The notes below the pieces were generated by a model, which saw only the letters and a program-made list of their open reading frames with translations, had not been told where the DNA came from and ran no database searches. The translations under genes were made by a program, and so were the position numbers. From Bacteroidales bacterium (lineage in GTDB: Bacteria > Bacteroidota > Bacteroidia > Bacteroidales > Salinivirgaceae), in the NCBI GenBank assembly GCA_012519055.1, contig JAAYQU010000046.1, positions 1 to 64,000 of the forward strand: a stretch of 64,000 nt of DNA. Reading direction: 5' to 3'. Positions 6,752 to 20,338 of this stretch are shown here, piece by piece (positions within the stretch are counted from its first letter, which is position 1; every line of letters starts with the position of its first letter).

Positions 6752-8701
6752 TTATACTGTTTTCTCTAATTCAAAGGATATTTTAGTTCCTTTGTCTACT
6801 TTACTTTCAACTAATAACTTATCATCATTTTTTTCAATAAACTCCATTGATACTGTAAGCCCTAATCCGCTACCCTTTTCTCCCAAAGTGCCATCGCTAA
6901 GAATAGCCTCTTTTTTAGAAAAAATACTTGCGATTTGCTTCTCGGTCATTCCTATTCCAAAGTCTTCTACCATTACTTGCCACCCTTTCTTTGAAGATGC
7001 TATTTTTATGATAACTTCCGAACCACGATGCGAAAATTTAACCGCATTATTAATTAGATTTCTAACAACAGTGCTTATCATCTGTTTATCAGCAAAAGTA
7101 TAGCACTCTTCAGGCATTTCGGTTTTAAGTTCGATATTTTTCCTCTCTGCTGCGATTGATAACAATTTAACTGCATCATTAATGACTTCTGCCAGATTGA
7201 AAACTATGGGATTATACTTGTTTTTTCCTGTTTGAATTCTCGACCAATCCGTAAGGTTTTGCATCAAATTTACTTGTGCTTCAGAAACATCGCGTAAATA
7301 ACCGAAGTATTGTTTAATCTCTTCTGTTGTATAATTATCGTAACGTTCAATTAAATCCTCAACAACCATTTTTTGCGCTATCGTGGGGCTTTTCATGTCA
7401 TGTGAAACAATTGAAAAAAGTTTGTCCTTCGATTTATTTATAAGCTCCAATTTATTTGCATAAATTTTCCTCCCTCTGGCAAATAAAAGGAGTAGTATTG
7501 ATATTATAAGCACCGCCACGGCCAAGGCTATCAAAAAATTTTGAACGGTTTTTGATCTTTTAAGTTGCTCATTCTGCAATTTTATTTGAGCATCTTTTTT
7601 CTCAGCTTCGTATTTCACCTGAAAATCAGCAATTTTTTGCCTCAATTGTTGATTAAATATGCTGTCCTGCATTTCTACAAATATCTCTAAATTCTCAAGT
7701 GCACTTTTATAATCACTATTCTTTTTTGCAATTTTATATTTCCCTGATATAGCCTTGTGTTTAACGTACCACAAGTCAAAAGAATCACAAACCGAAATAC
7801 ATTTTCCTAAATATGAAAGAGACTCCTGATCATTGTTTTCTCTGAACTTTAACATTGCTAACTGATAGTAAGTTATAGCTATTGACACCTTATTGTTCGA
7901 TTCATTAAACACTTCAATTGCCTCAGTATAGGCGCGTTCAGCTTCTTTAAGGTTATTCATTTCATTGTATATATTCCCTAAAATACTCAATCTCCTGCCA
8001 ACTTTATCGGTTCTATTAGCTTTTCTGTCTATTTCAAGAGCTTCTAACAACAATGGTAATGCTTTATCTGTGTTTTTAATCTGCAAATACGCTTCTGATA
8101 AATTACTTAATCTAGTTGCAAATTTCTCATCATCGCCTAAAGTACGCTCTAATTCAAGAGATTCACTTAAATATTCAATTCCTTTTTCTGGCTGTTTTGA
8201 ATACAAATATATAGTGCCAATATTGTTGAAGGCCGAACTTTTTAATTTAGGTTCGCCCGTTATATTTGCAACTTCTAATGCTAAGCTGCCATTTTCAATT
8301 GCTTTCTCGAAATCGCCAATTCTCTGATAATTACACGACATTATTGAATAATTTTCAAACGTGTAATTATTATCATTTAGCTTCTTACTTATTTCCAAAG
8401 ATAATTGAGCGCACTCATTTGATTTCATGAACTCAGATTTTTCATATAAATACGCTGCTGTTCCACAACAGACGATCATTTTGATGCTATCTTCAGGTGT
8501 ATCACTACTAAATATATGTCTACTACTAAGATTTCCTCTATCATATAACTCTGAAATCAATGAGTTACACAACTTAATATCAGCATTTTTACGTTGCAAT
8601 AGTTCAAATTGAGCAAACAGACTGTCAATAGTCTGAGAATTTGCACTAAACATAAAACATGTTATAAAACATATTGTTATAAAATATTTTACCGTAGTCA
8701 T
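6752..8701 (-). CDS. TPR-containing sensor histidine kinase
   Basis: Membrane sensor kinase, predicted partner of the adjacent LuxR-type regulator. From the chosen start it has a signal peptide (ITICFITCFMFSANSQ), about seven tetratricopeptide-like repeats in the periplasm, and a TM segment LIALAVAVLIISILLLLF. A HisKA domain with phospho-acceptor His in VSHDMKSPTIAQ follows. The HATPase has an N box RNLINNAVKFSH, a G1 box DFGIGM and a G2 box GLGLTVSMEF. A longer reading frame begins at 8737, but that start lies upstream of the predicted -7 box at 8726-8733, so 8701 is preferred. The stimulus is unknown; TPRs suggest a protein or peptide partner. Confidence 0.92.
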   Translation of the reverse strand: MTTVKYFITICFITCFMFSANSQTIDSLFAQFELLQRKNADIKLCNSLISELYDRGNLSSRHIFSSDTPEDSIKMIVCCGTAAYLYEKSEFMKSNECAQLSLEISKKLNDNNYTFENYSIMSCNYQRIGDFEKAIENGSLALEVANITGEPKLKSSAFNNIGTIYLYSKQPEKGIEYLSESLELERTLGDDEKFATRLSNLSEAYLQIKNTDKALPLLLEALEIDRKANRTDKVGRRLSILGNIYNEMNNLKEAERAYTEAIEVFNESNNKVSIAITYYQLAMLKFRENNDQESLSYLGKCISVCDSFDLWYVKHKAISGKYKIAKKNSDYKSALENLEIFVEMQDSIFNQQLRQKIADFQVKYEAEKKDAQIKLQNEQLKRSKTVQNFLIALAVAVLIISILLLLFARGRKIYANKLELINKSKDKLFSIVSHDMKSPTIAQKMVVEDLIERYDNYTTEEIKQYFGYLRDVSEAQVNLMQNLTDWSRIQTGKNKYNPIVFNLAEVINDAVKLLSIAAERKNIELKTEMPEECYTFADKQMISTVVRNLINNAVKFSHRGSEVIIKIASSKKGWQVMVEDFGIGMTEKQIASIFSKKEAILSDGTLGEKGSGLGLTVSMEFIEKNDDKLLVESKVDKGTKISFELEKTV

Positions 8702-9210: not shown

Positions 9211-10086
9211 ATGAGTGGATTAAAAATTGTAGTATTGGCAAAACAAGTCCCCGATACACGAAATGTGGGTAAAGATGCCATGAAAGCTGACGGTACTGTT
9301 AACCGTGCAGCATTAGAAGCAATATTCAACCCCGAAGATTTGAATGCCTTAGAACAAGCTCTACGACTTAAAGATCGCATTCCAGGCTCAATCATAACTA
9401 TTCTTACAATGGGACCGATTAGAGCTGCAGAAATTATTCGTGAAGGGTTGTATCGCGGAGCCGATAACGGCTACCTTTTAACAGACCGTGCTTTTGCAGG
9501 AAGCGACACACTTGCAACGTCGTATGCAATTTCTAAAGCAATAGAAAAAATTGGCAAATTCGACATTATCATTGCCGGACGACAAGCTATTGACGGCGAT
9601 ACAGCACAAGTAGGGCCACAGGTCGCCGAAAAACTCGGTTTACCTCAGATCACCTATGCTGAAGAGATAATTGATGTCAAGGGGAAAGAGATAATTGTAA
9701 AACGTCGTCTAGAACGCGGCGTTGAAACTGTGAAAGGTACGCTACCCTTAGTTATCACGGTTACAGGCTCTGCAGCAGAATGTCGTCCCAGAAACGCCAA
9801 GTTTACAATGAAATATAAACATGCACGCTCTGCTTCTGAACTGCAAGATGCTACAGAAGATTTCATGCAACTGTATAACTCAAGACCTTACCTTAAACTA
9901 TCTGAACTTTCAGTAAATGACGTTGATGTCGATCATGAACAACTTGGTTTGAGTGGTTCGCCAACAAAAGTTAAAGAAATAGAAAACGTTGTACTGCAAG
10001 CTAAAGAATCAAAAGTAATTGGAAACAACGACCAAGAAATTGAAGAGATGATTGTTGAGTTAATAAAAAATCATACTATCGGTTAA
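9211..10086 (+). CDS. etfB: Electron transfer flavoprotein beta subunit, bifurcating type
   Basis: Small subunit of the cytoplasmic ETF heterodimer that exchanges electrons with acyl-CoA dehydrogenases. The 291-residue protein has the ETF-beta core, including a GPIRAAEIIREGLYRGAD segment near residue 70. It also has GRQAIDGDTAQVGPQVAEKL near 124-143. From knowledge of the family, DGDTAQVGP is typical of NADH-oxidising, electron-bifurcating ETFs and differs from the DDDCNQTG found in mitochondrial-type ETF. The gene is first in an operon with etfA (29 bases on) and an acyl-CoA dehydrogenase. Bifurcation is inferred from this motif only. Confidence 0.93.
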   Translation: MSGLKIVVLAKQVPDTRNVGKDAMKADGTVNRAALEAIFNPEDLNALEQALRLKDRIPGSIITILTMGPIRAAEIIREGLYRGADNGYLLTDRAFAGSDTLATSYAISKAIEKIGKFDIIIAGRQAIDGDTAQVGPQVAEKLGLPQITYAEEIIDVKGKEIIVKRRLERGVETVKGTLPLVITVTGSAAECRPRNAKFTMKYKHARSASELQDATEDFMQLYNSRPYLKLSELSVNDVDVDHEQLGLSGSPTKVKEIENVVLQAKESKVIGNNDQEIEEMIVELIKNHTIG

Positions 10087-16420: not shown

Positions 16421-16460
16421 TTTCATGATATTTGTATAATATTTAGTGACATATTTTGAA

Positions 16461-16468
16461 TATATTTG
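16461..16468 (+). promoter_or_regulatory. Predicted -7 box of lysS
   Basis: TATATTTG, a TAnnTTTG match, 34 bases before the ATG at 16503. It lies inside the longer frame from GTG 16446 and so rules against that start. Confidence 0.55.
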
Positions 16469-16502
16469 CCACTCTATTAAACAAAGAACAACTTTTTACA
16501 AT

Positions 16503-18224
16503 ATGACAATTTTAGATCTAAGCGAACAAGAAATAATCAGACGTGAGTCACTGCAGGAATTAAGGAAAATGGGAATTGAACCCTATCCACAGGAAACGTA
16601 TGAAGTTAATACAACCACAGAAGACATTAGAGAAAAATTTGACCCCGAACAAAACAACTTCCAAAACATAAGTTTGGCGGGGAGAATAATGAGCCGTAGA
16701 ATTATGGGCAAAGCTTCATTTGCTGAACTTATGGACAGTAAAGGAAGAATACAACTCTACTTCAACCGCGATGAAATATGCAAAGGCGAAGATAAAACAC
16801 TATATAACGAAGTATTTAAAAAGCATCTAGATATAGGTGACATCATAGGTGTAAAAGGATATGCTTTTGTTACTCAAGTTGGTGAAAAAAGTGTTTTTGT
16901 ATCAGAATTCAAGATACTATCTAAAACACTGCGTGTATTACCAATAGTAAAAGAGAAAGATGGCGTAACATACGATGCCTTTACCGACCCCGAACAAAGG
17001 TACAGACAAAGATACGTCGATCTAATAGTAAACCCACACATAAGAGACGTTTTCGTGAAACGCACTATCATTGTTGACACCATGCGTAAAATGTTTAATG
17101 AACGTGGATACTTAGAAGTTGAGACACCCATTTTACAACCTATTCCAGGTGGAGCAGCAGCACGTCCATTCGTTACCCATCACAATGCTTTAAACATACC
17201 TCTGTATCTTCGGATAGCCAATGAACTATATTTGAAAAAACTTATAGTCGGTGGATTTGAAGGTGTTTACGAATTTTCCAGAAATTTCAGAAACGAAGGT
17301 ATGGATAGAACCCATAACCCCGAATTTACAGTTATGGAGATATATGTTGCCTACAAAGATTACAACTGGATGATGGGGTTTACCGAAACAATGTTGGAAA
17401 AAGTAGCTATAGCACTTCACGGGACAACAAAAGTAACGGTTGGCGACAAAGTCTTGGATTTCAAAGCTCCGTACAGACGAGTTACTATGATTGACGCCAT
17501 CAAAGAACATACAGGTATCGACATCACAGGAAAAGATGAAAACGAACTTCGAAAAATATGTAAAGAATTGAACATTGAGGTTGACGAATCATTCGGGAAA
17601 GGCAAACTTATAGACGAAATATTTGGCGAAAAGTGCGAGCAACACATGATTCAGCCAACATTTATCATCGACTACCCAATAGAGATGTCTCCTCTTTGCA
17701 AAAAACACAGAACAAACCCCGAGCTGACTGAGCGTTTCGAGCTAATGGTTAACGGCAAAGAGTTGTGTAACGCCTATACAGAGCTTAACGACCCAATCGA
17801 CCAGCTTGAACGTTTCCAAGAACAACTGAAACTAAGCGAAAAAGGCGATGACGAGGCAATGTTTATCGACCACGATTTTGTGAGAGCATTAGAATATGGT
17901 ATGCCACCAACAGCAGGAATGGGAATAGGAATCGATAGACTTGCAATGATAATGACAAATCAACCATCTATACAAGATGTCCTGTTTTTCCCACAAATGC
18001 GTCCCGAGAAAAAGGCTGAAACAGATAGTCCTGAAAAATTCACAGCAATCGGCGTTCCAAGCGACTGGGTCGATGCAATTAAAAAAGCAGGATTTCTAAC
18101 AGTTTCATCATTAAAAGAGACAAATGTGAATAAAATACATCAGGCAATATGTGGTGTCAATAAAAAATTCAAACTTGGATTGCAAAATCCTACTATTGAA
18201 GAGATTAAGGGTTGGATATCGTAA
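16503..18224 (+). CDS. lysS: Lysyl-tRNA synthetase, class II
   Basis: Charges tRNA-Lys with lysine in the cytoplasm; 573 residues from the chosen start. It has an N-terminal OB-fold anticodon domain ([20 protein letters not shown]). The class II core follows, with motif 1 near [19 protein letters not shown], motif 2 [20 protein letters not shown] and motif 3 [12 protein letters not shown]. About 65 extra C-terminal residues follow motif 3 and look like a small helix-hairpin-helix-type appendage ([20 protein letters not shown]), seen in several Bacteroidetes LysRS proteins. The ATG at 16503 is used because a promoter box overlaps the upstream GTG frame. Confidence 0.95.
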
Positions 18225-18260
18225 ACAATACGTTACCTGCAACTATAATAAACCGACAGG

Positions 18261-19397
18261 ATGAATGAACAGATATTCATATTAAATAAAAACCAATCTT
18301 TGGTAGAATTGAATGAAAGTGAATTCATGACTGAAAAACATTTTCAGGAATTATTAGAGAATTACCCTAATTTAATTTCAGGTAGTCAAATAAATCCTGA
18401 CAATCCAAGAAAATGGATACTTATTTCAAGAGAATTTGGAATTCCAAATGAAGAAGCAGGAAATAATATTTGGTCATTAGACCATTTATTTATTGACCAA
18501 GACGGAATACCAACATTAGTAGAAGTAAAAAGAAGTTCTGACACGAGAATAAGAAGAGAAGTAGTTGGACAAATGCTTGATTATGCTGCAAATGCAGTAA
18601 CTTATTGGTCGTTAAATGAAATTAGAAATAAGTATGAAAAATATTGTGAAACAATTAACATTGACCCTGAAATAAAAATTCAAGAATTGATTGATGAATC
18701 AGGAGATATTGAAAAATTTTGGGATACTGTTGGAACTAATTTGAAAGCAGGAAAAATAAGAATGTTATTTATCGCAGACAAAATCCCTAAAGAACTTCAA
18801 AGAATTATTGAATTCCTAAATGAACAAATGACTCCTGCAGAAGTACTTGGATTAGAAATCAAACAATTTGGAAATGAAACAATAAAAACGCTTGTTCCGA
18901 GAGTTATTGGACAGACTTATTCTGCTCAAATAAAAAAGGGACTTCGAGAATACAACCAATGGACAGAGGAAACCTTCTTCAATGAATTGGAACGAAGAAA
19001 CGGAAAAATTGCAGGAGATATAGTTAGAAAAATAATTGAGCATCTTGAAAACAAAGTTTCCCGATTTTGGTTTGGAAAAGGGAAAAGGAGTGGTTCAATT
19101 GTTCCAGCATTGGACTTATCGGATAATTCTCATTTTCCATTTGCAATATGGACTTATGGAAAAATTGAAATTTATTTTCAGTGGTATAAAGACAAGCCAC
19201 CATTTGACAGCATTGAAACAAGAATGAAAATTTTAGAGAAACTGAATGAAATAAAAGGAGTTAGTATTTCTGAAGACAAAATTGACAAAAGACCATCTTT
19301 TGACATTAAATTATTGAAAGACAAATCAGAATACGAAAAATTTATTAGGCTTTATGATTGGTTTTTTGAAGAATTAGATAAAATTGATAGCAGGTAA
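18261..19397 (+). CDS. PD-(D/E)XK nuclease-like protein of unknown function
   Basis: A 378-residue protein. The N-terminal third has a nuclease-type core: Asp74 in WSLDHLFIDQDG, Glu88 and Lys90 in PTLVEVKRSS, and the downstream QxxxY-like GQMLDYAA (Gln104, Tyr108). The pattern D-x13-E-x-K resembles the catalytic motif of NucS/RecB-type nucleases and DUF91-like proteins. The remaining 260 residues were not recognised. No Shine-Dalgarno is evident beyond AGG just before ATG. It is the sole cargo of a cassette-like insertion, which fits defence or DNA-processing functions often found in accessory cassettes. Nuclease activity is inferred from motifs only. Confidence 0.7.
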   Translation: MNEQIFILNKNQSLVELNESEFMTEKHFQELLENYPNLISGSQINPDNPRKWILISREFGIPNEEAGNNIWSLDHLFIDQDGIPTLVEVKRSSDTRIRREVVGQMLDYAANAVTYWSLNEIRNKYEKYCETINIDPEIKIQELIDESGDIEKFWDTVGTNLKAGKIRMLFIADKIPKELQRIIEFLNEQMTPAEVLGLEIKQFGNETIKTLVPRVIGQTYSAQIKKGLREYNQWTEETFFNELERRNGKIAGDIVRKIIEHLENKVSRFWFGKGKRSGSIVPALDLSDNSHFPFAIWTYGKIEIYFQWYKDKPPFDSIETRMKILEKLNEIKGVSISEDKIDKRPSFDIKLLKDKSEYEKFIRLYDWFFEELDKIDSR

Positions 19398-19398
19398 T

Positions 19399-19513
19399 AC
19401 GCAATAAAAAAACATAGGGCGGAAAGTGGTAAATTTGAACTACATAACATTTAATAAACAGCTTGGTAAATTGATAGGTAGCTACTTTTAATTGTCCTAC
19501 GTCTCTTATTGCC
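19399..19513. repeat. attC-like imperfect inverted repeat
   Basis: Left arm 19401-19427 and right arm 19484-19512 pair in three blocks of 7, 4 and 5 bp with bulges. The GCCAACCGTTATG boundary lies at the right end. Bulged pairing with a fixed outer boundary is typical of attC sites rather than of a terminator; no T run follows. Confidence 0.45.
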
Positions 19514-19594
19514 AACCGTTATGAGAAAAAAAGCCAGTAGCCATATGCTTTTCTTTCATAGCACGCAAGACTCTCTAAAAACAATTCCACTGCT

Positions 19595-19645: not shown

Positions 19646-20338
19646 ATGCGCATTGATATTCTTACAGTTTTACCTGAACTATTAAGCAGTCCTTTCGAGC
19701 ACTCGATTTTAAAAAGAGCTCGTGAAGCAAAAGTTGTAGAAATTTTTATTCACGATATCCGCAACTGGTCAACCAACAAGCACAAACGTGTTGATGACTA
19801 CGCTTTCGGCGGTGGTGCCGGTATGGTTATGACAATTGACCCTGTTTTTAGGGCTATAGAACAGCTAACGTCCGAGCGAGAATATGATACAATTATCTAC
19901 ACTTCACCCGATGGCGAGAGGTTTAACCAACAGACAGCCAACCGATTATCGACAAAGCAAAACATAATGATATTGTGTGGTCACTACAAGGGAATAGACC
20001 AACGTATTCGCGACCACTTAATTACTGAAGAGATTTCAATTGGCGATTACGTTTTAACCGGTGGCGAACTTGCAGCAGCTGTAATTTGCGACTCTGTAGT
20101 CAGGCTACTTCCGGGTGCTATTAGCGATGAGACATCGGCGTTAACCGATTCATTTCAAGACAGTTTGCTCGCTCCACCTGTTTACACACGCCCTGCGGAA
20201 TACAGAGGCTGGAAAGTTCCAGATGTTCTGCTCTCTGGCAACGATGCCGAAATAGAAAAATGGAGATTTAACCAATCATTGGAACGAACACGCAGGCTAC
20301 GCCCCGATTTAATGAATGATGATAATAATTTATCATAA
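19646..20338 (+). CDS. trmD: tRNA (guanine37-N1)-methyltransferase
   Basis: Methylates G37 next to the anticodon of a tRNA subset, preventing frameshifting. The 230-residue SPOUT protein shows [33 protein letters not shown], the trefoil-knot SAM site [12 protein letters not shown] and [16 protein letters not shown]. The C-terminal tRNA-binding part includes [22 protein letters not shown]. It is the first gene of a small operon; the lysO N-terminal half begins six bases after its stop. Confidence 0.96.

Follow-up and report, generated by a model that had tools for sequence, protein, structure and literature searches.

The single gene between lysS and trmD in the window, i.e., the 64,000-nucleotide stretch of DNA that was analysed as a whole, very probably represents a gene cassette from an integron system of the Bacteroidota, moved by an IntI-related integrase without the I2 additional domain. 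The cassette would thereby belong to a large, Bacteroidota-wide integron branch that is apparently undescribed, as a limited literature search found no description of an I2-less Bacteroidota integron branch.

The cassette between lysS and trmD

The features of the locus are collected in Table 1. The initial annotation had described one gene between lysS and trmD with CGTTACC and CGTTATG ends, and it is present as described: the 378-aa reading frame is the sole ORF between the two host genes and is flanked by CGTTACC (18231–18237) and CGTTATG (19517–19523). The 3′ tail is a bulged inverted repeat (GCAATAA/TTATTGC, CATAGG/CCTACG) terminating in GCCAACCGTTATG. Read as an attC-like site, it has the R′′ box CAGGTAAT at 19391–19398, overlapping the cargo stop codon, and the R′ box GTTATGA at 19518–19524, with unpaired spacers adjoining both R boxes. 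The R′′ sequence CAGGTAA at the stop codon pairs with TTACCTG, the 5′ end of the same cassette, and does not match the sequence that follows R′. At the left junction, the crossover would fall between G18232 and T18233.

Table 1. Features of the lysS–trmD locus (positions in the window)
Feature	Position	Strand	Remarks
lysS, left host flank	16446..18224	+	ORF list; stop at 18224
Left junction, attI-like TATCGTAAACAATAC^GTTA, overlapping the lysS stop codon	18217..18235	+	16/19 identical to own attI core
Inserted gene cassette, 1286 bp (TTACCTG ... CCAACCG)	18233..19518	+	G^TT at both ends
Cargo gene, 378 aa, PADLOC PDC-S11 candidate defence protein, weak Shedu-type nuclease similarity	18261..19397	+	
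attC-like site, 17–20-bp stem, ~65-nt apical region	19391..19526	-	R1 match, L033 homologue, covariation
trmD, right host flank	19646..20338	+	start at 19646

The R′′ box reads GGTAAT instead of RYYYAAC, with AAT replacing the AAC that most family members have. The attC of the window copy may be impaired, because a C-G pair stands where it has AAT in 119 of the 121 sites of the family. Folded alone, neither strand of the repeat outperforms shuffled sequence: of 200 shuffles each, 151 and 161 fold at least as well. The single-sequence fold is thus not significant, and the claim of an attC-like site therefore needed comparative testing.

A family of attC-like sites

A 125-bp tail in another genus of the same order (locus L033, genome G055) is 82% identical to that of the window (E 1e-27). 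It precedes a gene unlike the window cargo and has textbook ends, GTTCAAC ... GTTGGCG. In the same genome, a host repeat of ~200 nt flanks the cassette on both sides (L064, ~7800–8005 and 9330–9530), and the downstream attC breaks off directly after R′′. L033 was found as a one-mismatch motif match that proved real; the short-motif searches (GCCAACCGTTA; ACAGCTTGGTAANTTGAT; CCGCCAAC..CGTTGGCGG) otherwise returned mostly coding or chance matches and were set aside. The earlier expectation that the ends recur holds in part: the same ends stand around different genes in the own genome and across Bacteroidota, whereas the short strings (GCCAACCGTTA; the central motif) occur near chance frequency. 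A scanner for the R′′–stem–R′ geometry gave 8 candidates in the first locus set vs. 2 in reversed controls, and in one of the candidates (L023) the attC-like site closes the first cassette 3′ of a tyrosine recombinase.

A covariance model, R1, was built from 12 sites aligned as bottom strands. Its structure comprises 24 pairs, 16 of them with compensatory changes among the 12 aligned sites, and its stem includes two conserved G.T wobbles, one of which is present in 12/12 sequences. For 121 sites collected by the model, 96% of cells are paired and the covariation is 0.661, vs. 0.158 for shuffles and at most 0.121 for slid structures, in an alignment that was fitted to R1 and therefore leans towards the structure. 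The sites are near-constant in length (~134 nt), with a stem of ~19 bp, spacers of unequal length and a long apical region; classical attC sites have extrahelical bases in the L box, for which the consensus stem, with its G.T wobbles, shows no constant counterpart, and individual sites do have bulges.

R1 scores the window site, which was a training sequence, at 101 bits (E 1e-19, bottom strand). At E < 1e-3, the own genome holds 13 sites, of which only that of the window was in the training set. Within the order, 180 of 295 genomes gave R1 matches; across the Bacteroidota, 124 of 296 sampled genomes (42%) did so at E ≤ 1e-6. No site was found in 298 kb around Xer genes, and 604 kb of viral contigs gave one strong match (L089), on a contig chosen for its R′′/R′-like ends. 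With the L033 copy and the structure and covariation of the family as its basis, we take the attC-like tail to be real; together with the G^TT junctions, this bears out the proposal that the insertion resembles an integron cassette and has an attC-type site at its 3′ end.

Integrases, attI sites and arrays

A profile search of the own genome found no recombinase at the IntI cut-off. It does encode an I2-less tyrosine recombinase (G000:C45:242-1078; NF040815, 238 bits, cut-off 220), adjoined by an attI-like site, TTTCGTAAATTATAC^GTTAGCAGC, at which the cassette start points away from the integrase; the contig ends ~55 bases into this first cassette. The initial annotation had the cassette as one "without a linked integrase", which is true of the lysS–trmD locus only, given this candidate integrase, its attI-like site and the arrays in the own genome. 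Its broader notion of an integrase-less cassette class fails, as many relatives have arrays with a related integrase at the head.

The attI core at C45, written TTTCGTAAATTATAC^GTTA, is 19 bases long. Six genome-wide matches have at most two mismatches: the integrase site, the known cassette starts on C37, C1 and C31, and sites on C44 and C45, the last two lying one gene upstream of sub-threshold R1 matches. At three mismatches, the matches include the window's left junction, which is weaker than most, and the C33 cassette. There were 19 matches vs. 4 for a reversed-pattern control, and the three-mismatch class includes chance sites. Because its left junction matches the core at 16 of 19 positions, the window cassette probably entered a secondary, attI-like site located at the stop codon of lysS. 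Most cassettes of the own genome lie on contigs other than that of the integrase, which counts against the proposed system. Upstream of several own-genome cores stands TATATTTG, which resembles the -7 promoter element of Bacteroidota and may be part of a Pc promoter for the arrays. The attI core is preceded by repeats of ATATACGAATGTT, of which several copies are scattered over the genome (L407, L420, L422 and L419, on C45, C33, C39 and C26); this suggests duplicated attI sites as well as look-alikes.

Integrases beside an attI site and a cassette array, i.e., the layout of an integron platform, were found in relatives. The recombinase adjoins an array of single- or few-gene cassettes in G003 (a complete genome), G363, G402, G618, G624 and G020, the largest mapped array having 15 attC sites in 20 kb. 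As read from coordinates, integrase and cassettes are co-oriented in 15 of 18 platforms and divergent in G020, G624 and the own genome. In 13 of 15 platforms, the start of the first cassette, as predicted from R′′, coincides with a GTT located 73–225 nt past the stop of the integrase gene, and most of these starts are preceded by a shared motif such as TATAAACGA^GTT. Several integrase contigs break off less than 300 bases from the integrase, which would fit arrays that vary within the population. Two further observations concern recombinase genes in relatives. The complete genome G003 has at least nine near-identical genes for 310–316-aa tyrosine recombinases within 200 kb (G003:C1:110157-303189), perhaps a shufflon or transposon family; and in a relative of the same genus (L297, G001:C13), an integrase of the I2-less branch is broken by internal stop codons.

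The association between integrases and attC sites was measured with a profile of nine array integrases at a threshold of at least 270 bits. Matches were found in 31 of 40 attC-rich genomes vs. 0 of 20 attC-free ones, in which the top match is a broken 231-bit fragment; 8 of the 40 had given profile sequences, and without them 23 of 32 are positive. Nine of the 40 attC-rich genomes have no integrase of the array family at this threshold. At 20 integrase loci outside the training of both models, R1 found attC sites in 10 (23 sites, 220 kb), vs. adjoining sites in 0 of 20 Xer control loci from the same genomes.

The missing additional domain

A block of ~43 residues that contains the I2 helix, near patch III, is absent from every array integrase examined and present in three controls, namely IntI1, a Kovacikia IntI and the IntI of G012. 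Two array integrases score 220–234 bits against TIGR02249, under its cut-off of 265. The columns Arg, Lys, His, Arg, His and Tyr, presumably the catalytic ones from what is generally known of tyrosine recombinases, are invariant in the recombinase alignment A6, and a C-terminal S/N-P-L-D tail is common to array integrases and IntI. In trees that are small and serve as a guide only, the array recombinases group with IntI, apart from Xer, with moderate support (UFBoot ~80), and IntI is monophyletic. Most members of the branch also have an extra N-terminal module, absent from the integrases of the own genome and G618. This module, which has W..W..P-type repeats (e.g., ARWSRTLNTWHIPY) and no clear Pfam match, is present in one to three copies, as in L199 (2939–4567), L196 (7548–8990) and L405 (7368–8822).

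I2 has been described as necessary for cassette capture and as occurring in no other protein, with no phylogenetically inferred ancestor sequence available (PMC7790495), and the insertion is not fully conserved within the integron-like recombinase subgroup (PMC8138268). As judged from these alignments, the branch is integron-like in anatomy yet fails the test that defines IntI, because its array integrases are without the additional domain.

In an alternative reading, the window holds a classical cassette, moved by an ordinary IntI that came in from elsewhere, and the I2-less recombinases beside the arrays are unrelated Xer-like enzymes. Structurally diverse attC sites are indeed substrates of classical IntI (PMC9668308), and a bona fide IntI (367 bits) is encoded in G012, alongside I2-less relatives and attC sites. 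However, in the stretches scanned, no attC lies beside the IntI gene of G012, and this enzyme was rejected as the cassette mobiliser. Moreover, of 21 genomes, 20 have no IntI above the family cut-off despite abundant attC sites, and the own genome is among these 20, whereas the I2-less integrases head the arrays at the short distances given above and track attC across genomes as the chromosomal Xer of the same genomes do not. We therefore consider this alternative improbable.

Cassettes as units and their proposed mobilisation

The sequences delimit the cassettes as units. Among 73 cassettes with a site on either side, 4.26 of the 5 variable positions of R′′ are complementary to the start of the same cassette, vs. 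1.88 of 5 for the start of the next cassette and 1.91 ± 0.13 for shuffled starts. Such complementarity would follow if an attC is restored when the excised cassette closes into a circle, and pairing of R′′ with its own rather than the next cassette is the hallmark of integrons.

This pattern also bears on whether the 3′ hairpin is instead a terminator, a REP-like repeat or a structured RNA that has spread with genes and is no recombination site. A long hairpin of near-constant length immediately 3′ of the stop codon would suit such an element, but an RNA or terminator function does not predict that R′′ complements the far-end start of its own cassette. In addition, the junctions lie exactly at G^TT, conserved R boxes stand outside the hairpin stem, and Rfam returned no matching family for the three loci tested, all of which make such an origin of the hairpin very unlikely.

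A cassette moved by the I2-less integrase would thus be mobilised as follows. The IntI-related tyrosine recombinase, in the own genome presumably that of C45, would excise circles at R′ (G^TT), with the attC-type 3′ end folding on the bottom strand and reacting as a folded single strand. The circles would be inserted at double-stranded attI, with the core ...TATAAACGA^GTT in relatives and TTTCGTAAATTATAC^GTTA here, and genomic look-alikes of attI may serve as alternative targets. For the lysS–trmD cassette, the target would have been a look-alike of this kind at the stop codon of lysS, with the integrase acting in trans. The cassette units, the attC family, the attI-like junctions, the association of integrases with arrays and the absence of the additional domain can be read directly from the sequences; catalysis by the C45 integrase, the single-strand reaction and the direction of the window insertion are deduced.

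Cargo genes

The window cargo had been proposed as a PD-(D/E)XK-like nuclease, possibly in defence. The defence part is favoured by a PADLOC match of the 378-aa protein to PDC-S11 (3e-14), whereas the nuclease assignment relies on motifs and a sub-threshold Shedu match: against SduA_C, the protein scores 17 bits (cut-off 27; E 0.007), below what would make it a Shedu (SduA) protein. Its AlphaFold model is poor (pLDDT 55) and has no meaningful fold match. We regard the protein as a candidate defence protein. Among the other cassettes of the own genome, that on C37 encodes an Mrr-type type IV restriction enzyme (6e-82), and many further cassettes carry genes without a defence match.

Proteins 85–87% identical to the cargo are encoded in MAGs assigned to KSB3 and Cloacimonadota, in unrelated flanks. 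The homologue in the KSB3 MAG has an R1 site immediately 5′ of it, and its cassette opens with the same GTTACCTG; this context supports transfer of the cassette, with mis-binning possible. The KSB3 homologue also has the AAT change of the window copy. A Celaenobacter MAG (L012, 5001–6131) has an 85%-identical cargo gene and no attC-like site. No homologues were found in viral contigs, and those in plasmids are distant ones only.

That the gene is an old resident, cassette-like by chance, could appeal to the non-significant single-sequence fold and to the lysS–trmD adjacency, which was looked for in 18 relatives and not seen, so that there is no empty site to compare, but it is already contradicted by the family evidence and highly improbable, given that a tail with 82% identity adjoins an unlike gene in a second genus, and given the close cargo homologues in MAGs assigned to other phyla, and a left junction that resembles the genome's own attI.

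Comparison with known systems

With classical integrons (IntI/attI/attC; class 1 and Vibrio superintegrons), the branch has in common single-gene cassettes that end in attC and lie in one orientation, R′′/R′ boxes of the form RYYYAAC/GTTRRRY, a presumed G^TT crossover and an attI-like site beside the integrase. We note three differences. First, IntI1 depends on its additional domain (I2 helix), which the branch integrase is without; the latter mostly has the extra N-terminal module. Second, integrase and array are usually co-oriented in the branch. Third, in contrast to classical attC, the branch sites are near-constant in length, with two G.T wobbles and no constant extrahelical consensus base.

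Recombinase-associated acquired interbacterial defence (rAID) arrays are known from gut Bacteroidales. A Parabacteroides distasonis plasmid array with the rAID layout has a recombinase (WP_004316061.1) that nests in the I2-less branch, with the additional domain absent. In its intergenic sites (~50 nt), the complementarity within a cassette is 8/8 in 7 of 7 cassettes, whereas other pairings average 5.7. Taken as a whole, the branch shares with rAID, examined in this one rAID-like plasmid, a related recombinase, co-oriented arrays and intergenic motifs. They differ in the short sites of rAID with a CA^TTA core and in its cargo of orphan T6SS immunity genes, whereas other kinds of gene are found in the window cassette and in those examined from the own genome. 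Judged from this plasmid array, the gut rAID immunity arrays belong to the I2-less branch. A recent paper on rAID reports the recombinase, the co-oriented genes and the intergenic motifs, and the word integron is absent from it (PMC12247911).

Cassettes without a neighbouring integrase are a feature in common with CALIN and single attC cassettes (IntegronFinder 2.0, PMC9024848), and insertion at genomic secondary sites is one in common with attG insertions, as far as these are presented where PMC12901181 cites them (Loot et al. 2024). Unlike in either, an I2-less integrase is encoded in the own genome, and its attI is what the dispersed insertion sites look like. Among PDC-S11 and Shedu-like proteins, the cargo is linked to the former by profile and to SduA_C by similarity below the Pfam cut-off.

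Implications

Integrons are the main known platforms of bacterial gene capture, and surveys usually define them via IntI with its additional domain. I2-less integrons are likely to have been overlooked by standard surveys, because their integrase is without the domain thought to define integrons. Complete integrons are reported to be rare in Bacteroidota, with IntegronFinder 2.0 naming only Salinibacter ruber within Bacteroidetes (PMC9024848). We lean towards a picture in which phylum-wide integrons, the gut rAID arrays included, have an integrase that never acquired or has lost I2, G.T wobbles in attC replace the extrahelical bases that dock with I2, and the branch represents a missing sister or ancestral stage of IntI.

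The occurrence of one attC-like family in 42% of 296 Bacteroidota genomes suggests that genes are exchanged on a large scale by a route so far overlooked, which carries restriction and candidate defence genes and ties environmental arrays to the rAID arrays of the gut. The I2-less relatives would provide material for testing how single-strand attC recombination evolved.
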